Shown here piece after piece: positions 38,087 to 48,633 of a stretch of DNA of 64,000 bases. Location: positions 139,001-203,000 of the forward strand of contig JAHLKT010000007.1 in the NCBI GenBank assembly GCA_020444545.1, in the 5' to 3' direction. The notes beneath the pieces are model-generated. The model was not told the origin of the DNA, did no database searches, and saw nothing but the letters and a program-made list of their open reading frames with translations. A program made the translations under genes and the position numbers. Positions within the stretch are counted from its first letter, which is position 1. The number at the start of each line of letters is the position of its first letter. The stretch is from Desulfarculaceae bacterium. Lineage in GTDB: Bacteria; Desulfobacterota; Desulfarculia; Desulfarculales; Desulfarculaceae.

Positions 38087-39265
38087 ATGGGTGACAACTA
38101 CCTGTTTTCCAGCGAATCGGTGACCGAGGGCCATCCGGACAAGGTCGCGGATCAGATCTCCGACGCTATTTTGGACGCCATGCTCAAGGACGACCCCGAG
38201 AGCCGCGTTGCCTGCGAAACCCTGGTCACCACCGGCATGGCCATGGTGGCCGGCGAGATAACCACCGAGACCTACGTGGACATCCCCGAGGTGGTGCGCA
38301 ACACCATCAAGGGCATCGGCTACACCAACTCCTCCATGGGCTTCGACTGGGAGACCTGCGCGGTGCTCACCAGCATCGACAAGCAATCGCCCGACATCTC
38401 CCAGGGCGTCACCGCCGACACCAGCCTCTTCGGCGAACAGGGGGCCGGCGACCAGGGAATCATGTTCGGCTTTGCCTGCACCGAGACCCCGGAGCTGATG
38501 CCCGCGCCCATCCACTTCGCCCATCTGCTGGCCCGCCGCCTGGCCAAGGTCCGCAAGAACGGCTCCCTGGGCTTCCTTCGGCCCGACGGCAAGAGTCAGG
38601 TGACCCTGCAGTACGAGAACGGCATGCCCAAGCGGGTGGAGGCGGTGGTCATCGCCAGCCAGCACAGCCCGGACGTGAAATACGAGACGCTCAAGGAAGC
38701 CATCATCGACGAGGTGATCAAAAAGGTGCTTCCCCTGGAGATGCTCGACGGCGACACCAAGATGTTCATCAACACCACCGGCCGCTTCGTGGTCGGCGGC
38801 CCCCACGGCGACTGCGGGCTCACCGGCCGCAAGATCATCGTGGACACCTACGGCGGCCAGGGCAGCCACGGGGGCGGCTGCTTCAGCGGCAAGGACCCCT
38901 CCAAGGTGGACCGCTCCGGCTCCTACTACGCCCGCTACGCGGCCAAGAACCTGGTGGCCTCGGGGGTGTGCGACAAGTGCGAGGTGCAGGTGGCCTACGC
39001 CATCGGCGTGCCCGAGCCGGTTTCCATCCTGGTAAACACCTTCGGCACCGGCAAGGTGGACGAGGACAAGCTCTCGGCGGCCATGCCCAAGCTGTTCGAC
39101 TTCAGGCCCGCGGCCATGATCCATCAGCTCAACCTCAAGCGCCCGGTGTACAAGCGCACCGCGGCCTACGGCCACTTCGGCCGCGAGGAAGAGGGCTTCA
39201 CTTGGGAAGTCGCCGACCGGGCCGAGGCCATCAAGGAATTCTTCAACCTCAAGACCTCTTGCTGA
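38087..39265 (+). CDS. metK: S-adenosylmethionine synthetase
   Basis: A 392-residue Met[37 protein letters not shown] and [20 protein letters not shown] are family signatures for ATP and methionine binding. AAGGAGG precedes the start. It pairs with ahcY 16 bp downstream, forming a methyl-cycle operon. Confidence 0.97.
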
Positions 39266-39278
39266 GGCGGAGCCTTAA

Positions 39279-40538
<1,260 letters not shown>

Positions 40539-40616: not shown

Positions 40617-40691
40617 GCCGGCGTAGCTCAGGGGTAGAGCAGCTGATTCGTAATCAGCAGGTCGACGGTTCGAATCCGCCCGCCGGCTCCA
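40617..40691 (+). tRNA. tRNA-Thr(CGT)
   Basis: A 75-nt cloverleaf with acceptor GCCGGCG/CGCCGGC, D arm GCTC/GAGC, anticodon stem GCTGA/TCAGC with loop TTCGTAA (anticodon CGT), T loop TTCGAAT and encoded CCA. The T stem has one A-C mismatch. It reads ACG codons. Confidence 0.95.
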
Positions 40692-40897: not shown

Positions 40898-42052
40898 TTA
40901 GAAGACGAAGCGGAACTGCACGCCCAGCAGCCACTCGTTGCCCTGGCCGTTGCCGGTCTGGGGGCTGTCGCCGTAGTTGAAGTACGAGAACTCGGGGTGG
41001 ACACCGAAGTTCTTGGTGAACTGGTAAGGCACGGCGATGAAGGCGCCCATGCGGACGTTCTCGTCCTTGGAGAAGCCGTTCTTGCCGGACCAGGCGTCGT
41101 TGGAGAAGTTCTCGTAGCCCACGCCACCGGTGATCATGATCTTGCCGATCTTGTACTCGCCGGCCAGGATACCACCGTAGATGGTGGTGTCGTCGATACC
41201 GCCGGTGGTGATGCCGTTGCGGTAAGGCTGGGTAAGGGCGACGGGGTAGAAGGGATACTCAGTCGCGAAGTTCACGCCGTAGTGGCCCTGGAACTTTAGG
41301 GTGAAGGCGCCGACAGTGTACTTGATCGGGAGCACGAAGGCCCAGGTGTTGTAGCTGTCGTCAAAGGCGCCGGTGCTGCCGGACTCATACTTGTGGTTCA
41401 CGAAGTTGAAGCCCGGGTGAGCCATGAAGCCGCCGAACTTGAACATCAAGGTCACGCTGGCGCGGGGGAACATGAAGCTGCTGTCGGTGCCGGTGCCGAA
41501 GTAGTTGGTCTTCTGGCGCGGCTCTTCCAGCGCGAACTGGACGCCCCACTTGGCGGTGTTATAGGTGAACTGCACCTGAGGCACGCGGTGAGGCCACAGG
41601 AAGCCCCAGCCGAACATCAACAGGTGAGCGTTCTCGTTCAGGCCGACGTACTGACGCACGTGGTAGGCCAAGGAACCGAACCAGTTGTCGGTCTGACCAG
41701 CCAGGATACGGCAGTTGCCCACACGCCAATAGGCGTAGGCATAACGCAGGCTGACGCTGGCTTCGGGCTGCAGGCTCTTAAGGCCGAGCTCGATACGGCC
41801 ACCCACGTTTTTGTCCACGCTGTAGAAGCGGGCCTGCAGGTAGCTGTGACCAGGCATGTTCAGGAACCAGGAGCCCACCGCGTCGGAGCCGTTGGTGGTG
41901 AGCTCTTCGCTTTTCTGCTGCCAGCCGATGTCGGTCAGCATACGAGCGGCCATCTGGAAGGTGTAGGTCGAGGGCGACACGTCCGCCAGGGCCGGGACCG
42001 CCACCGCCAACGCCATCACGGCCGCCATAGCCATGATAAGCAACTTTTTCAT
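40898..42052 (-). CDS. outer-membrane beta-barrel porin
   Basis: 384 residues. Signal peptide MKKLLIMAMAAVMALAVAVP ends at ALA-D. The mature protein alternates Tyr/Phe/Gly-rich strands (YLQARFYSVDKNVGGRIELG, ASVSLRYAYAYWRVGN, FTLKFQGHYGVNF) and ends VQFRFVF, with the terminal Phe needed for outer-membrane assembly. Codon use suggests high expression. The start at 42052 begins the signal peptide; a frame to 42070 adds only six residues. Single gene with its own terminator; transported solute unknown. Confidence 0.85.
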   Translation of the reverse strand: MKKLLIMAMAAVMALAVAVPALADVSPSTYTFQMAARMLTDIGWQQKSEELTTNGSDAVGSWFLNMPGHSYLQARFYSVDKNVGGRIELGLKSLQPEASVSLRYAYAYWRVGNCRILAGQTDNWFGSLAYHVRQYVGLNENAHLLMFGWGFLWPHRVPQVQFTYNTAKWGVQFALEEPRQKTNYFGTGTDSSFMFPRASVTLMFKFGGFMAHPGFNFVNHKYESGSTGAFDDSYNTWAFVLPIKYTVGAFTLKFQGHYGVNFATEYPFYPVALTQPYRNGITTGGIDDTTIYGGILAGEYKIGKIMITGGVGYENFSNDAWSGKNGFSKDENVRMGAFIAVPYQFTKNFGVHPEFSYFNYGDSPQTGNGQGNEWLLGVQFRFVF

Positions 42053-42291
42053 TTGACCAGTTCTCCACAAATGAGTTTATGCAGATGCGCCCTTAGCCTC
42101 CGGGTGCCCACCCGGAAAGGCGCATCCTTGCTAAGCCAGGCAGGGCGGCAGAATCACCCCAAACTGCTGCCTACCTTGGCGTCTAGCCGTCCTTTTCTCA
42201 CATTCACGATAATCCAAAAAACCTCAACAAGTTGCCGGAAAATAACTATACAGGCGTCTGCCTACAAATTTTTTGCGAAAGCTTAACTTAA

Positions 42292-42364: not shown

Positions 42365-42907
42365 CTAGACCCGGTAGGCTTCGCGCCCGTCCTGGCCGTA
42401 CCAGCCCCGGGTGAGCGTTTTTACGTAAATCACCTTGTCGTCGCCCGGGGCGTAGAAATCGGCCAGCACCGCCTGGGGGGCGTAGCCCCGCGCCTGGTAG
42501 AAATGGCGGGTGGGGCGGTAATGGGGCCGCGAGGAGGTCTCCACGTACATGCGCTCCCCGCCCATGCCCACGGCGCGTTGCTCGGCCAGCTCCAGCAAGG
42601 CGCTGCCCAGGCCCGCGCCCCGGCGCTCATTGTCCACCACGATCCAAAACAAATCCCAGGAGGCGGTGGTGCAGGCGATGGGCCCGTAACAGGCATAGCC
42701 CGCCAGCTCCGCGCCCGAGGGCGCGAAGATGAAATGGTAGCCGCTGGCCAGGCCCCTGGCCAGGCGCTCGCTGGCCAGCTCGGCGGCCACGGCCACCTCG
42801 TCGGGGCGGAAGAATCCGCTGTCCCTGGTTATGCGCTCCACCATCTCGGAGTCGCCGGGAAGAACTTCCTCGCGCCAGAGCTCGCCGGTTTGCGCGGTCG
42901 CTTGCAT
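42365..42907 (-). CDS. GNAT family N-acetyltransferase of the beta-lysine cluster
   Basis: 180 residues. The acetyl-CoA loop is DNERRGAGLGSALLELAEQ; ASWDLFWIVVD forms the beta4 strand and YQARGYAPQAVLADFY the C-terminal part. It should acetylate an amine. It is the last gene of the aminomutase/ATP-grasp operon, 12 bp after the ligase gene, so a beta-lysine amine is a natural acceptor. It is not obviously the AblB beta-lysine acetyltransferase. Substrate inferred from context. Confidence 0.85.
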   Translation of the reverse strand: MQATAQTGELWREEVLPGDSEMVERITRDSGFFRPDEVAVAAELASERLARGLASGYHFIFAPSGAELAGYACYGPIACTTASWDLFWIVVDNERRGAGLGSALLELAEQRAVGMGGERMYVETSSRPHYRPTRHFYQARGYAPQAVLADFYAPGDDKVIYVKTLTRGWYGQDGREAYRV

Positions 42908-42919
42908 ACTCGCTTACAC

Positions 42920-43894
42920 TCACTTGCGGTGGGCATCGTCCAGGATGGCCGCCACCACCGCCTTTTGCTCCATGCCCGCCTGGGCCGCCGCGGCCATGAA
43001 GCCCGCGTCCGAGGCCAGACAGGGATTGGCGTTCACTTCCAAAATCCAGGGTCGGCCCAAGCGGTCCACCCGGAAGTCCACCCGGGCCCAGCCGCGCAGG
43101 CCGAACAGGGACCAGCAGGCCTTGGCCAGGCGGCCCAGCTCGCTGAGCAGCCACTGGTCGTCCGGGCCGAAGTCGTAGCGGCGGGGGGTGTGGTGATACT
43201 CGAAAGACCCCGCCTCCCACTTGGCGCGGTAACCCACCACCTTGAGCTGGTTGGCCGCGAAGCCGTCGAACACGATCTCCGCCGGGGGCAGCAGGCGCGG
43301 ACCCCGGGGACCGGCCAACAGGGCCAGGTTGAACTCGCGGCCCTCCACGTAGGATTCGGCGAACACCGGGCCGCCCAGCTCGGCCGCCTTGGCGGCCAGG
43401 GCGTTGGCCAGGGCCTCCCCCCGGCGCACCAAGGAGCTTTGGTCGATGCCCAGGGAACCGTGCTCCCACACCGACTTGATGAGCCAGGGCCCGCTGGCCG
43501 TGCCCCGGCCCTCGCCGCGGATGCTGCGCCAGGCCGGGGTGGGCAGGCCCGCGCGGCGCAAGACCCGCTTGGCCAGGAGCTTGTGGGAGGTGAGGAGCAT
43601 GGCCCGTCCTCCGGCCCCGGTGAAGCTCAGGCCCCGCTTGGAAAGCAAATAGGGCACCGAGGCGATGCGGCTGGCCCGGCCCAGGGGCTCCTCCACCAGG
43701 TTGAACACCGCACCCGGGCGCAGGGCGGCCAGGCGCGCTAGGCTCTCGGCGGGCGAGCCGCCCCAGGCGCTCAGCTCGGGCAGATGGCCCAGGGCCTTGA
43801 GGCAGGCCGCCGCCTCGCGGGCCTGGACCAGGTTGTCCTCCTGGTCCGGCCGCGCCCCGGCTTCCACCGCATCATGCAGAACCGCCACGCGCAC
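42920..43894 (-). CDS. ATP-grasp ligase A (D-Ala-D-Ala ligase-like)
   Basis: 324 residues with the D-alanine-D-alanine ligase fold. ATP contacts are WLIKSVWEHGSLGID and VFAESYVEGREFNLALL; the metal-binding end is DFRVDRLGRPWILEVNANPC. The N-terminal domain contains FNLVEEPLGRASRIA. Peptide or amide bond formation between amino acids is likely. It differs from true Ddl in acceptor-loop sequence and lies beside a second ligase. Part of a tight operon with 10-12 bp gaps. Confidence 0.88.
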   Translation of the reverse strand: MRVAVLHDAVEAGARPDQEDNLVQAREAAACLKALGHLPELSAWGGSPAESLARLAALRPGAVFNLVEEPLGRASRIASVPYLLSKRGLSFTGAGGRAMLLTSHKLLAKRVLRRAGLPTPAWRSIRGEGRGTASGPWLIKSVWEHGSLGIDQSSLVRRGEALANALAAKAAELGGPVFAESYVEGREFNLALLAGPRGPRLLPPAEIVFDGFAANQLKVVGYRAKWEAGSFEYHHTPRRYDFGPDDQWLLSELGRLAKACWSLFGLRGWARVDFRVDRLGRPWILEVNANPCLASDAGFMAAAAQAGMEQKAVVAAILDDAHRK

Positions 43895-43904
43895 GGCTTT
43901 GGCC

Positions 43905-44912
43905 TCAGTACAGGCCCGGGGCCGGACAGGGGCTCGCCATGAGCCGCCGCTCCAGGGCCGAGGCCACGATGCGCTCGATGAGCTTCACGTAGGGCATCTC
44001 CACCAGGCCGCAGAGGATGGGCAGGTCCGAGTGCTCGGGGTGCAGCCCGGCCAGGGGGTTCACCTCCAGGAAGGAGGGCTTGCCCGCCGCGTCGCAGCGC
44101 AGATCCACCCGCCCGGCGTCGCGGCACTCCAGGCCGCGCCAAGAGGCCAGGGCCAGCTCGCCGGCCTCCCCGGCGATGGCGCCCTTCACCCGGCGGTAGC
44201 TCACCAGGCTCTCGCACTCTTCCTTGTTGCGATAGGAATAGACCTCCGCGTCGGCCCCGGAGCGCAAGAGAACCTCCATCACCCCTATGATCCGCGCCTT
44301 GGGGCCGGTGCCCACGATGCCCACCGTGAACTCCCGGCCGGGCAAGAAGCTCTCCACCAATACCGGCTGGCCGTAGCGGGCGATGAGCTCGGCGCATACC
44401 GCCGCGAGCTGCTCGCGGCCGGTCACCTTGGAGGCCGCCTCCACCCCGCGCCCGGTGCCCTCGGCCACCGGCTTGGCGAACAGGGGCCAGCCCAGGTTGA
44501 CCGACGCGGCCTGAGAGGGCTCGGCCACCACCGCGAAGTCCGGCGTGGCCAGGCCCAGGTCGCGCACCACCCGCTTGGCCATGCCCTTGTGCAGGGTGAG
44601 GCTCAGGGTCATGGGGTCGGAGAAGGTGTAGGGCAGGCCGTAGTATTCCAGCAGGGCCGGCACCAGGGCCTCGCGGCCGTAGCGCCCCAGGCCCTCGGCG
44701 ATGTTGAACACCAGATCCCAGCGCTCGCCCTGAGACAGGCTCGCCACCAGCGAGGGCAGGGAGCCGATGCGCACCGGGTCATGGCCCAGCGAGGCCAGGG
44801 CCTGCTCGATGCCCTCGATGGTGCGGGGGCTGTCGAACTCGGCCACCTGCTCCTCGCTGTAGCCGCGCTCCAGGTATTCCGCGCGCAGATCGTAGGTAAG
44901 GCCAATGCGCAT
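43905..44912 (-). CDS. ATP-grasp ligase B (D-Ala-D-Ala ligase-like)
   Basis: 335 residues, a second Ddl-fold ligase. FNIAEGLGRYGREALVPALL is the N-terminal signature; LFAKPVAEGTGRGV, VLVESFLPGREFTVGIV and FLEVNPLAGLHPEHSDLP mark ATP and Mg2+ sites. It is distantly related to ligase A, so the two probably act in succession on different substrates. It follows the aminomutase by 25 bp. Confidence 0.88.
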   Translation of the reverse strand: MRIGLTYDLRAEYLERGYSEEQVAEFDSPRTIEGIEQALASLGHDPVRIGSLPSLVASLSQGERWDLVFNIAEGLGRYGREALVPALLEYYGLPYTFSDPMTLSLTLHKGMAKRVVRDLGLATPDFAVVAEPSQAASVNLGWPLFAKPVAEGTGRGVEAASKVTGREQLAAVCAELIARYGQPVLVESFLPGREFTVGIVGTGPKARIIGVMEVLLRSGADAEVYSYRNKEECESLVSYRRVKGAIAGEAGELALASWRGLECRDAGRVDLRCDAAGKPSFLEVNPLAGLHPEHSDLPILCGLVEMPYVKLIERIVASALERRLMASPCPAPGLY

Positions 44913-44937
44913 GGCCCTATTCCTTTCCTGGCCGCCT

Positions 44938-46224
44938 TCAGCAGGCCGCCGGGCCCAGGTCGCCGCCGCAGTCGGGATAGGTGTAGGTCCCGCCCGCGTA
45001 GTTTTTCAACACCAGGTCGTTGCCGTTTTTGCCCACCACTGCCTCGGGGTACAGGGCCACCTTGCCGCCGCCGCCCGGGGCGTCGATGACAAAGGTGGGC
45101 ACCGCATAGCCGCTGGTGTGGCCCCGAAGGCCCTTGATAATCTCCAGGCCCTTGCTCACCGGGGTGCGGAAGTGGGACGAGCCCACGATGGGGTCGCACT
45201 GATACAAATAGTAGGGGCGCACCCGCATCTTCAAAAGGCCCTGCATCAGCTTGCGCATGGTCTCCACCGAGTCGTTCACCCCGGCCAGGAGCACCGTCTG
45301 GCTGCCCAGGGGGATGCCCGCGTCGGCCAAACGGGCGCAGGCCCGCGCCGTCTCCGGGGTCAGCTCCGCCGGGTGGGTGAAGTGCAGGCTCATGAACAGC
45401 GGGTGATAGCGTTTGAGCTTTTTCACCAGCTCGGCGGTTATGCGCTGGGGCAACACCGCCGGGGTCTTGGTGCCCAGGCGCAGCACCTCCACGTGGGGTA
45501 TGCGCCTGAGGCGGCCCAAGAGCCACTCCAGCCGGTCGTCGGCCATGGTCAGCGGGTCGCCGCCGGAAATGAGCACGTCGCGCACCGAGGGCGTGGCCTC
45601 GATATAGGCGATGGCCCGTTCCATGGCCTCGCGGCTGTGCACCGGCCCGTGGCTCTGATGGCCCACCAGGCCCACCATGCGCGAACGGGTGCAGTAGCGG
45701 CAGTAGGCCGCGCAAAAGCCGGTGGAGAGAAACAGCACCCGGTCGGGATAGCGGTGCACCAGACCCGGGGCGGCCATGTCGTGGTCCTCGCCCAGGGGGT
45801 CGGAGCTCTCGCCGGGGCCGGTCACTGCCTCGAACCAGGTGGGCACCATGGTGCGGCGCAGGGGATCGGCCGGGTCAACCGGGTCCATGAGGGACAGATA
45901 ATAGGGCGTGATGCCCAGGGGCAGCTTGCCGGGGCAGGTCGCGAAGGCCCGCTCCTCGGCCGGGGCCAGCTTCAGATAGCGGGACAGGCCCGCCAGGCTG
46001 GTGACCCGGTTGCGCACCTGCCAGTGCCAGTCGTTCCAAAGACTGGTGGGCAGGCCGGGGAAGTGGCGGCGGCGGAAGGCCGCGGCGCTTCGTCCCGTGG
46101 AAACGATGGCCTTGTCCGGGGCAAAAGGCTCGATAGCCGGAATCGCCCGCGGGATCTGGCCGGTTTCAGGCCAGCCTTGGTGGGGAGGCTCCAGGGCGTG
46201 GGCGCTGTTTTCGCTGCTTTTCAT
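44938..46224 (-). CDS. kamA: lysine 2,3-aminomutase (radical SAM, PLP)
   Basis: 428 residues. The radical-SAM cluster is Cys171-x3-Cys175-x2-Cys178, with carboxylate-binding Arg180. The PLP lysine is Lys388 in DAPGGGGK. Asp344 (YQCD) and Asp381 occupy the positions of Asp293 and Asp330 that bind the lysine side-chain amine in the clostridial enzyme, with constant offset, so lysine rather than glutamate is the expected substrate. The product would be beta-lysine. It has a ~46-residue longer N-terminus than the clostridial form. First gene of the operon. Confidence 0.93.
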   Translation of the reverse strand: MKSSENSAHALEPPHQGWPETGQIPRAIPAIEPFAPDKAIVSTGRSAAAFRRRHFPGLPTSLWNDWHWQVRNRVTSLAGLSRYLKLAPAEERAFATCPGKLPLGITPYYLSLMDPVDPADPLRRTMVPTWFEAVTGPGESSDPLGEDHDMAAPGLVHRYPDRVLFLSTGFCAAYCRYCTRSRMVGLVGHQSHGPVHSREAMERAIAYIEATPSVRDVLISGGDPLTMADDRLEWLLGRLRRIPHVEVLRLGTKTPAVLPQRITAELVKKLKRYHPLFMSLHFTHPAELTPETARACARLADAGIPLGSQTVLLAGVNDSVETMRKLMQGLLKMRVRPYYLYQCDPIVGSSHFRTPVSKGLEIIKGLRGHTSGYAVPTFVIDAPGGGGKVALYPEAVVGKNGNDLVLKNYAGGTYTYPDCGGDLGPAAC

Positions 46225-46328: not shown

Positions 46329-46928
46329 TTACTTGAGGCCCAGGGCGGCCTTGGTAGCCTTGTCCACCTTGCCGGTGACCTTCAGGCCCTTGGCCTTCTG
46401 GAAATGCTTCAAGGCCATCTTGGTTTTTTTGCCCCATACGCCGTCCACCTTCAGCTTGGCGCCGTTGGCGTTCAGGGCGTCCTGCAGGACGCGCACCTTG
46501 GGGTTGACCTTCACGGCCTTCATGCCCTTGGCCTTCGCGGCCGGGGCCGCCTTGGCCGGAGCCGCCTTGGTCACGGCGGGAGCGGCCGGAGCCGCCTGCT
46601 CGGCGGCCATGGCCAACGGAGCGGCGCACAGAGCCATGCTCACCATCGTCGCCAGGGCCAGGCCCGTGATCTTGCCTTTGCTGCTTTTGCTCATCTCAAA
46701 CCTCTCGATCAAAATGGTTTTTGCTTCAGCCAGGCACTCCACCCGGCCCCAGACCGTAACCTCGCGCTTCAGGCGGCCCAGGAGTTCCTCTCCCCGGCCG
46801 CCGGGCGCCACCCGGTAGGTGGCCTCGTCAAAGGCGGCGATGGCCACGGCCTTCGCCTTGCCCTTGTCGTCCCACTCCACCGGGATGACCAGCCCCGTGA
46901 TCTTTTGGATTGCGGCTTTGGCGCCCAC
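46329..46928 (-). CDS. fused protein: small conserved N-domain, internal signal peptide, peptidoglycan-binding domain
   Basis: A 199-residue frame with GTG start and good AAAGGA. Residues 1-78 (GLVIPVEWDDKGKAKAVAIA ... VWGRVECLAEAKTILIERFE) look like a small stand-alone cytoplasmic protein common in deltaproteobacteria. Residue 79 is Met with its own GAGAGG and begins a signal peptide ending MAA, then an Ala/Lys/Pro linker and a peptidoglycan-binding_1 domain (VRVLQDALNANGAKLKVDGV). It could be two genes fused by loss of a stop, or an internal start at 46694 producing an exported protein. A sigma-54 promoter lies upstream. Confidence 0.72.
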   Translation of the reverse strand: MGAKAAIQKITGLVIPVEWDDKGKAKAVAIAAFDEATYRVAPGGRGEELLGRLKREVTVWGRVECLAEAKTILIERFEMSKSSKGKITGLALATMVSMALCAAPLAMAAEQAAPAAPAVTKAAPAKAAPAAKAKGMKAVKVNPKVRVLQDALNANGAKLKVDGVWGKKTKMALKHFQKAKGLKVTGKVDKATKAALGLK

Positions 46929-47074: not shown

Positions 47075-48478
47075 CTACTTGAAATCGCGGGCCGAGAGGC
47101 TGTACTTGGTGAGCAGGTTCCGTAGCTGGCGGGTGGTGATGCCTGCCTGGGCGGCGGCCTGATCCATCCGGCCATTTTTGGCGGCCAACAGGCCTCGTAG
47201 ATAGCGGCTCTCCACCTCTTCCACCGCCCGGCGGCGCGCCTCGGCCAGGCTCTGGCCTTCGCCGGGCTCGGAGTCCTCGCCGGGGTGCTCCAGGGCCATG
47301 AGGTCGGCCGGGAAGCTGGCCGGGGACAAGCGGCGGCCCCGCTCCAGGATGTAGGCCCGCTCCAGGAGGTTTTCCAGCTCGCGGATGTTGCCCGGCCAGG
47401 CGTAGGCGGCCAGCGCCTGCATAACCTGCTCGTCCAACCCGCTGATGTTTTTGCCGTAGTTGCGGTTGAGCCGCTCCAGGGGAGTGCTGACCAGCAGGGG
47501 CAGGTCCTCGCGGCGGGCCCGCAGGGGGGGCAGCTCGATGGCAAAGACGTTGAGCCGGTAATAGAGGTCGTCGCGGAAGCCGCCCTCGCTGATCTTCTTG
47601 GCCAGGTCCACGTTGCTGGCCGCCACCACCCGCACGTCCACCGAGATGTCCGACTCCCCGCCCACCCGGCAGAAGGAGCCTTCCTGCAATACCTGCAAAA
47701 GCTTGATCTGGGCCGAGGGCGAGATGGTGCCCACCTCATCCAGGAAAATGGTGCCCTTGTCCGCGATCTGGAACTTGCCCAGCTTGCGGCGCTCGGCCCC
47801 GGTAAAGGAGCCCTTTTCGTGGCCGAAGAGCTCGCTTTCCACCAGGGTGTCGGGCATGGAGCCGCAGTGCACCGCCACGAAGGGCCCGCCCGAGCGCGAG
47901 GAGTGCATGTGGATCAGCCGGGCCAGCATGCTCTTGCCCGTGCCGGTTTCGCCGGTGATCAGCACCGTGGCTCGGGTGGGGGCCACCATCTCCAGCTTTT
48001 CGTAGACCTCGCGCATGAGCGGGGAGCGGGTGCGCACCAGGCCCTGGGCCTCGCCCCGCCAGAAGCTCTCGCGCAGATACTCCAGCTCTTGCTCGATGCG
48101 CTTGCGGTCGGCCAGCCCGGCCATGACCAGCTCCACCTCGTGGGGGTCCACCGGGTAGGTGAGGTAGTTGTCCGCCCCGGCCTTGACCACGGACACGGTC
48201 TGGCGGATGCGTTCCGGCGGGGTGAGCACGATGAGGGGAGGCCCCCCGGAGCGGCGGAAGCGTTCCAGGGCCGCGGCGTAGTCGGGCTCCTCACCCTCGG
48301 GAAGCAGGGAGGTGATGAAGCCGATATCCACCAGGGCTAGGTCGAAACGGCGGCGGCCCAGCAGGTCCAGACAGGCCTGGGCCGAGGCGGCGTCTTCCAG
48401 CCGTTCCCCGTGCTTGAGGGCCTTGCGCAGGCTGGCCTTGACCGTGGTCTCCGGTGTGGCCACCAGCAATGATTTCAT
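47075..48478 (-). CDS. NtrC-type sigma-54-dependent response regulator
   Basis: 467 residues. A receiver (~1-125, phosphoacceptor in LALVDIGF) is followed by an AAA+ domain (~145-385) with Walker A GETGTGKSMLARLIHMHSS, the sigma-54 contact loop GSFTGA, Walker B GTIFLDEVGTIS and the arginine-finger region, and a Fis-type helix-turn-helix at the C-terminus (MDQAAAQAGITTRQLRNLL). The ATG at 48478 is chosen because the receiver begins there. Two sigma-54 promoters lie on either side, so these are its probable targets. No cognate kinase gene is adjacent. Confidence 0.93.
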   Translation of the reverse strand: MKSLLVATPETTVKASLRKALKHGERLEDAASAQACLDLLGRRRFDLALVDIGFITSLLPEGEEPDYAAALERFRRSGGPPLIVLTPPERIRQTVSVVKAGADNYLTYPVDPHEVELVMAGLADRKRIEQELEYLRESFWRGEAQGLVRTRSPLMREVYEKLEMVAPTRATVLITGETGTGKSMLARLIHMHSSRSGGPFVAVHCGSMPDTLVESELFGHEKGSFTGAERRKLGKFQIADKGTIFLDEVGTISPSAQIKLLQVLQEGSFCRVGGESDISVDVRVVAASNVDLAKKISEGGFRDDLYYRLNVFAIELPPLRARREDLPLLVSTPLERLNRNYGKNISGLDEQVMQALAAYAWPGNIRELENLLERAYILERGRRLSPASFPADLMALEHPGEDSEPGEGQSLAEARRRAVEEVESRYLRGLLAAKNGRMDQAAAQAGITTRQLRNLLTKYSLSARDFK

Positions 48479-48633
48479 TTCCCACCCCTTGAGGGATACA
48501 GGCTTCTTAGTGCGGATTGTAGCGCCGGGAAGGCGTTTTTCCCACTGTAAAACCATGCCCCCGCCAGGGAACCGCCGGTTCCCCCGCGAAAAAGCCTTGC
48601 GCCGTTTGTGAGTCGGATCAGCACCTTACGCGA

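Follow-up and report, generated by a model that had tools for sequence, protein, structure and literature searches.

The four-gene operon and its proteins

A 64,000-nucleotide stretch of the genome of a Desulfarculaceae bacterium (assembly GCA_020444545.1, contig JAHLKT010000007.1, positions 139,001 to 203,000; the whole stretch is referred to as the window) carries four minus-strand open reading frames (ORFs) at 42365-46224. In order, they encode a KamA-family radical S-adenosylmethionine (SAM) aminomutase, two ATP-grasp ligases resembling D-alanine-D-alanine ligase (Ddl), named ATPG1 and ATPG2, and a GNAT acetyltransferase. The intergenic gaps are 25, 10 and 12 bp, and the ORFs lie as placed in the original prediction, which was made from the sequence alone and described a tight one-strand operon with gaps of 10-25 bp. 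The Pfam domains of all four proteins exceed their gathering cut-offs, with the LAM_C match in KamA spanning only the first 56 of 127 model positions.

44938..46224, minus strand: KamA-family radical SAM aminomutase, 428 aa (Pfam Radical_SAM and LAM_C; TIGR03820; PDB 2a5h; tree)
43905..44912, minus strand: ATPG1, first Ddl-like ATP-grasp ligase, 335 aa (Dala_Dala_lig_C; Asp296 at the Ddl Leu282 position)
42920..43894, minus strand: ATPG2, second Ddl-like ATP-grasp ligase, 324 aa, GTG start (Dala_Dala_lig_C; Gly298 at the Leu282 position, Trp226 at the Tyr216 position)
42365..42907, minus strand: GNAT acetyltransferase, 180 aa (Acetyltransf_1; PDB 2r7h family)

Profile alignment of KamA to the clostridial enzyme (2a5h; positions counted by hand) matched Arg180, Asp344, Asp381 and Lys388 to Arg134, Asp293, Asp330 and Lys337, which we take to be the lysine- and pyridoxal phosphate-binding residues of that enzyme. 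All four residues, which the original prediction had assigned to these roles, are invariant across 19 aligned KamA sequences. KamA scored 457.4 bits against the AblA model TIGR03820, under the equivalog cut-off of 525.4, and 391 and 370 bits against the glutamate and arginine 2,3-aminomutase models, respectively, both also under cut-off. In a tree of 142 KamA rows, 119 of them linked to the gene cluster, the window KamA was placed in a fully supported clade made up of 104 cluster rows plus a single unlinked row, and the 8 AblB-linked KamA rows formed a separate supported clade. The main clade includes rows labelled Planctomycetota, Acidobacteriota, Bacteroidota, Spirochaetota and WOR-3, some of which are perhaps mis-binned, as records labelled as distant phyla may include mis-binned contigs. 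KamA is predicted to be a lysine 2,3-aminomutase whose subfamily differs from that of the AblB-linked KamA.

Both ligases scored below the cut-offs of the Ddl models NF002378 (145.8 and 95.5 bits; cut-off 243) and TIGR01205 (109.7 and 78.1 bits; cut-off 245.65), and a separate Ddl is encoded elsewhere in the genome (C7:6581-7183, 178 bits). A structure model of ATPG1 (mean pLDDT 91.2) had a Ddl, 8evz, as its best Foldseek match (TM 0.78 and 0.83, 29 percent identity). Residues were counted in the rows nearest the window's ligases (at least 250 aligned residues for ATPG1 and at least 230 for the others), with the rows nearest the diverged ligases counted separately. The positions of Ddl Lys215, Glu270 and Asn272, which we take to be the ATP-grasp catalytic residues, are intact in ATPG1 (128/128 at each) and ATPG2 (90/90, 89/90 and 90/90, respectively). 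The D-Ala subsite is presumably formed by Tyr216, Ser281 and Leu282, the last touching the second substrate. The Leu282 position is occupied by Asp in 128/128 ATPG1 and by Gly in 90/90 ATPG2 rows, and the Tyr216 position by Glu in 93/128 ATPG1 and by Trp in 90/90 ATPG2 rows; the Ser281 position holds Ser in 121/128 ATPG1 rows, and Ala (70/90) or Ser (16/90) in ATPG2. The two proteins thus share with Ddl/VanA the fold and the catalytic residues, and in ATPG1 mostly Ser281, but differ in score and at the Tyr216 and Leu282 positions, which are replaced in both ligases. Ordinary Ddl was rejected for both on these grounds and because the genome has its own Ddl, and their description as two distinct Ddl-like enzymes, which the original prediction had proposed to check against the ordinary Ddl specificity residues, stands. 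The Asp at the Leu282 position of ATPG1 would suit a cationic second substrate. Among diverged second ligases, Gly is kept at this position in 33/35.

A ligase tree sampling 46 of the 128 ATPG1 rows, 41 of the 90 ATPG2 rows and one Ddl entered twice separated first from second ligases, with the diverged forms falling on the corresponding sides, which suggests that the ligase pair is old; the single Ddl forms a very long branch and the root is uncertain.

The GNAT exceeded no NCBIfam cut-off, and its profile match to PDB 2r7h, a structure annotated on deposition as a putative D-alanine N-acetyltransferase, scored 203 bits against 36 for the runner-up. Two known systems invite comparison. AblA and AblB, which constitute the N-epsilon-acetyl-beta-lysine osmolyte route of methanogens, are also assigned in Pelobacter carbinolicus (Pcar_1401/1402; PMC3543383) and in a syntrophic propionate oxidiser (PMC11201294). 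A lysine 2,3-aminomutase and a GNAT acetyltransferase occur in both that route and the operon, whereas the window KamA belongs to another clade, its GNAT is of another family, and two ligases and sometimes a deacetylase are added. The canonical AblA/AblB system was rejected because KamA is under the AblA cut-off and in a separate clade, and because no AblB (TIGR03827) match was found in the window genome at E 0.001.

The pathway to N-acetylglutaminylglutamine amide (NAGGN), with the synthetase model TIGR03103, is also known. It shares with the operon the principle that ATP-grasp and GNAT activities together yield an acetylated dipeptide, but here the GNAT and ligase genes are separate, there are two ligases, and an aminomutase is part of the operon. 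TIGR03103 is not among the family matches listed for ATPG2 or GNAT, nor among the 25 listed of the 32 families matched by ATPG1.

Conservation and variant forms of the cluster

An even draw of 297 genomes from the phylum of the window was searched for ATPG1, and the matches, sampled from close to distant, gave 60 loci spanning up to 20 kb each (L033-L092). A scan of GTDB contigs with an ATPG1 alignment yielded at least 562 relatives, of which the best 80 were kept (L093-L172). The two sets overlap partly (a 45,339-base contig, for example, is in both L080 and L095), and some loci stop at contig edges. In the phylum loci, KamA was found upstream on the same strand in 40/60, ATPG2 downstream in 53/60 and GNAT in 40/60; the corresponding numbers in the GTDB-contig loci were 75/80, 68/80 and 40/80, and a less strict tblastn count over the whole locus gave 76, 70 and 57 of the 80. 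The full order KamA, ATPG1, ATPG2, GNAT is present in 30/60 and 38/80 loci, respectively. Conserved clustering, proposed at the outset as a check, is thus borne out, and the recurrence of the gene order in many genomes, those of anaerobic and environmental bacteria, indicates that the operon is more than chance.

An ATPG1-like ligase (E 1e-35) was present in 104 of the 297 genomes, and KamA (E 1e-60) in 103 of these 104 versus 76 of the 193 others, at thresholds set after the tables were inspected. With strict thresholds (ATPG1 1e-100, KamA 1e-140), 48/56 genomes with ATPG1 were KamA-positive versus 3/241 without. Seven of the eight strict-ATPG1 genomes lacking strict KamA have a weaker or partial KamA. 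The three genomes with the reverse pattern have a truncated ATPG1 copy adjoining KamA (G072), a ligase in two pieces next to KamA (G133), or an unlinked KamA and a weaker ligase fusion (G295). AblB exceeded its cut-off in 9 of the 297 genomes, two of which (G178 and G280) carry an ATPG1-like ligase as well (E 1e-35), with a third (G046) just short at 1.1e-33; these counts are too small for mutual exclusion of AblB and the cluster to be claimed. Beyond the phylum, an ATPG1-like match (E 1e-35) was found in 47 of 246 sampled Planctomycetota genomes, with at least 53 percent identity in 20 of the 47, and 15 short Planctomycetota loci contained ATPG2 in 13 cases and GNAT in 5. No ATPG1 match was found at E 1e-30 in plasmid records.

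A further candidate partner is a protein of ~580 residues encoded downstream of the cluster in 8/60 phylum loci and 21/80 GTDB-contig loci. The member examined at L036 has a weak GNAT-like N-terminus, under Pfam cut-offs, and a C-terminus of the histone-deacetylase family. The deacetylase part is closest to the acetylpolyamine amidohydrolase 6phr (243 bits, ~310 residues aligned) and in this alignment keeps the GHH, DxDFHHG and EGGY stretches, and it is predicted to deacetylate acetylated amines; it differs from 6phr in having the GNAT-like domain in front, and at full length the fusion occurs only in genomes that bear the cluster or some form of it. The search matched 29 genomes, of which two without the cluster (G024 and G279) matched in the deacetylase domain alone and were not counted. 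Of the remaining 27, 26 are among the 104 ATPG1-like genomes and the 27th is G072, so that in all 27 the cluster is present, whether in its usual form, diverged or damaged. Fifteen of the 27 full-length copies are unlinked to the cluster: neither KamA nor a ligase is found nearby, and these loci have common neighbours only within two pairs (L236/L237 and L239/L240). A within-family test of the association of fusion and cluster gave p = 4e-6, and 0.0023 for unlinked copies only; Fisher tests assume independent genomes, so relatedness inflates significance, and the genome lists used for co-occurrence and the family tables used for the fusion test were transcribed by hand. The fusion is absent from the window genome, and a congener (G262) has an unlinked full copy and a fusion fragment beside its cluster (L074:5492-5902).

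Variant arrangements were found among 61 loci, in which gene calls and families are heuristic; one or two members served to name each family present in at least 4 of the loci (family F16 is an antisense frame). In 8/61 loci a related ligase pair, mostly with a GNAT of the same family, follows a pyruvoyl arginine decarboxylase gene, and in 6 of these 8 an agmatinase-family gene comes directly before it. KamA is encoded elsewhere in all 8 genomes. The diverged first ligases have Cys at the Leu282 position; these are the 8 arginine-decarboxylase loci together with L062, L065 and L072, in which KamA adjoins the ligases, and L064, in which the contig ends upstream. Because three KamA-adjacent loci also have Cys, the Cys/Asp residue is no clean marker of the form. 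In three other loci (L103, L123 and L151) KamA and ATPG1 occur as a pair with no second ligase in ~9 kb downstream, which ties ATPG1 to the KamA product, and in G254 and G295 both ligase matches lie within one open frame. The operon is wider in scope than first described: the GNAT/deacetylase partner, the form with KamA elsewhere and the two-gene form were beyond the view of the original prediction. Histidine-kinase-family and NtrC-family genes lie between ATPG1 and the KamA-ATPG2 pair in L052, L053 and L055, a hint of signal control. By eye, a reverse-transcriptase-like sequence lies upstream of the ligases in G285.

A proposed route to an acetylated beta-lysine peptide

The gene system is real, widely conserved and apparently undescribed; no published description of this gene set was found among the titles and abstract openings judged, with the 2009 survey of ATP-grasp amidoligase operons outside this coverage. 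From the computed gene set, gene order, co-occurrence, intact catalytic residues and non-Ddl residues at two specificity positions, we infer substrates, step order, acetylation site, product location and physiological role. KamA would convert L-lysine to beta-lysine; ATPG1 would use ATP to activate a carboxylate and join beta-lysine to it by an amide bond; ATPG2 would form a second amide bond; and GNAT would transfer an acetyl group onto a free amine, probably the terminal one. Blocking of a side-chain amine ahead of peptide-bond formation is proposed for another predicted system (PMC2922099). In some genomes the fusion of GNAT and acetylpolyamine amidohydrolase domains may take the acetyl group off again, for turnover or de-protection. 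What results would be an acetylated di- or tripeptide containing beta-lysine, small and soluble, and serving as a stress or osmotic solute or as a storage metabolite; the absence of a transporter or envelope gene as a fixed neighbour favours a soluble product. That the four proteins constitute such a route, with chemistry read from their sequences, seems to us about evenly balanced between right and wrong. The acetylated beta-lysine di- or tripeptide of the original prediction thus gains from the gene parts, the residues and the clustering, while the product itself stays at the level of a proposal.

More tentatively, and at somewhat less than even confidence, the cluster may represent a widespread undescribed class of reversibly acetylated beta-lysine peptides, made by a system of KamA, double Ddl-like ligase, GNAT and GNAT/deacetylase that is common to sulfate reducers, syntrophs, Planctomycetota and other bacteria, with a sister form linked to arginine-derived amines. 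If this is true, many ATPG1-bearing bacteria make a so far unknown beta-lysine peptide, the short list of peptide solutes is extended, and two orphan ligase families and the GNAT/deacetylase fusion gain a function; the ligases would also be a source of enzymes forming beta-amino-acid amides. The small gene set makes the proposal directly testable. Of the physiological roles suggested originally, that of an osmolyte is possible but somewhat doubtful, and it is not tied to saline hosts: at least 8 of the 80 GTDB record titles mention groundwater, fen or LacPavin (taken as Lake Pavin). The antibiotic and cell-wall roles receive little support, as no non-ribosomal peptide synthetase (NRPS) or peptidoglycan-synthesis family, and no Mur or Fem gene, is among the families in at least 4 of the 61 loci, the ABC family is scattered, and the YitT and peptidoglycan-binding families are in 4 loci each.

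Several observations weigh against the beta-lysine peptide reading. Since KamA is under the AblA, glutamate and arginine 2,3-aminomutase cut-offs, a different substrate is possible. The main clade leaves out 15 of the 119 cluster KamA rows, 12 of which group on the AblB side and 3 with unlinked KamAs, and 76 genomes have KamA without ATPG1-like ligases. All 12 diverged first ligases have Cys rather than Asp at the Leu282 position, including those of the three loci with an adjacent KamA. G285, the sole such case among the 104 genomes, has an ATPG1-like ligase without KamA; Phyllobacterium pellucidum (L138:9001-10002) has an isolated ATPG1 that keeps the Asp loop, in a genome where KamA found no match; and KamA lies within 1.5 kb in only 7 of the 15 Planctomycetota loci. 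The scattered ABC ATPase family and the YitT membrane protein also make export possible.

The amine partner might instead be another beta-amino acid or a polyamine, with the ligases forming amino-acid amides of a diamine. The related ligase pair behind the arginine decarboxylase, the agmatinase-family gene, the closeness of the fusion's deacetylase domain to acetylpolyamine amidohydrolases and the failure of KamA to reach any substrate-specific cut-off all point this way. However, all 19 KamA sequences share the lysine-type Asp pair, and the decarboxylase and agmatinase genes may simply have housekeeping functions, which also seems true of the PyrK- and PyrD-like genes downstream. The idea that the agmatinase/arginine-decarboxylase form supplies a different amine, putrescine replacing beta-lysine, was dropped as a main claim because all 8 genomes have KamA elsewhere, and the polyamine explanation as a whole is judged unlikely. 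It is very improbable that KamA and GNAT alone make N-epsilon-acetyl-beta-lysine in the manner of AblA/AblB while the ligases serve something else. The reaction types are the same, but the GNAT has no match to AblB, the AblB-linked KamAs lie apart from the main KamA clade, and L103, L123 and L151 pair KamA with the first ligase, with no GNAT of the operon's family seen in the locus.

The two remaining explanations concern the cell envelope and secretion. Ligases building a beta-lysine-containing stem or cross-bridge peptide would fit the Ddl-like fold and the peptidoglycan-binding-domain protein encoded upstream in the window and three relatives; with no recurrent Mur or Fem genes, a separate Ddl in the genome and that family in so few loci, such a role is quite improbable. 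A secreted antibiotic, siderophore or signal would agree with the wide and patchy distribution, with the ABC-transporter ATPase family in 11/61 loci and with the YitT-family membrane protein, and peptide ligases and acetyltransferases are usual in clusters for such compounds. The ABC ATPase genes, however, are scattered over both strands at 3.3 to 10.3 kb to either side, only 3 loci have the YitT gene behind the cluster on its strand, and no transporter family is a fixed neighbour, making secretion highly improbable. The soluble acetylated beta-lysine peptide is the reading retained here.

Neighbouring genes

The families present in at least 4 of the 61 loci comprise NtrC-type regulators, histidine kinases, the ABC ATPase, YitT and peptidoglycan-binding families, and housekeeping genes. 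The same-strand YitT genes are at L084:4397-5284 (Pfam match), L086:13809-14669 and L087:6046-6954, and the protein is a possible transporter for the product. Two genes upstream of KamA in the window belong to such families.

46329..46928, minus strand: peptidoglycan-binding-domain protein, directly upstream of KamA (Pfam; family F18)
47075..48556, minus strand: NtrC-type sigma-54 regulator, upstream (Pfam, NCBIfam; family F2)

The peptidoglycan-binding-domain family precedes KamA in 4/61 loci, the window counted, and its gene is probably outside the operon core. The NtrC-type family is present in 14/61 loci at variable distance, and its member in the window is a possible regulator of the operon. 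A sigma-70 scan, with 0 promoters, and a terminator scan, with 3 terminators versus 3.6 in shuffles, were both uninformative.

Beyond the GNAT gene, a minus-strand ORF at 40898-42070 encodes a 390-aa protein with a signal-like start and, by eye, the look of an outer-membrane beta-barrel, with no Pfam or NCBIfam match. On the opposite strand beside the operon region, genes for S-adenosylmethionine synthetase and S-adenosylhomocysteine hydrolase are adjacent at 38087-40538 (plus strand), and this pair is followed by a tRNA-Thr at 40617-40691.

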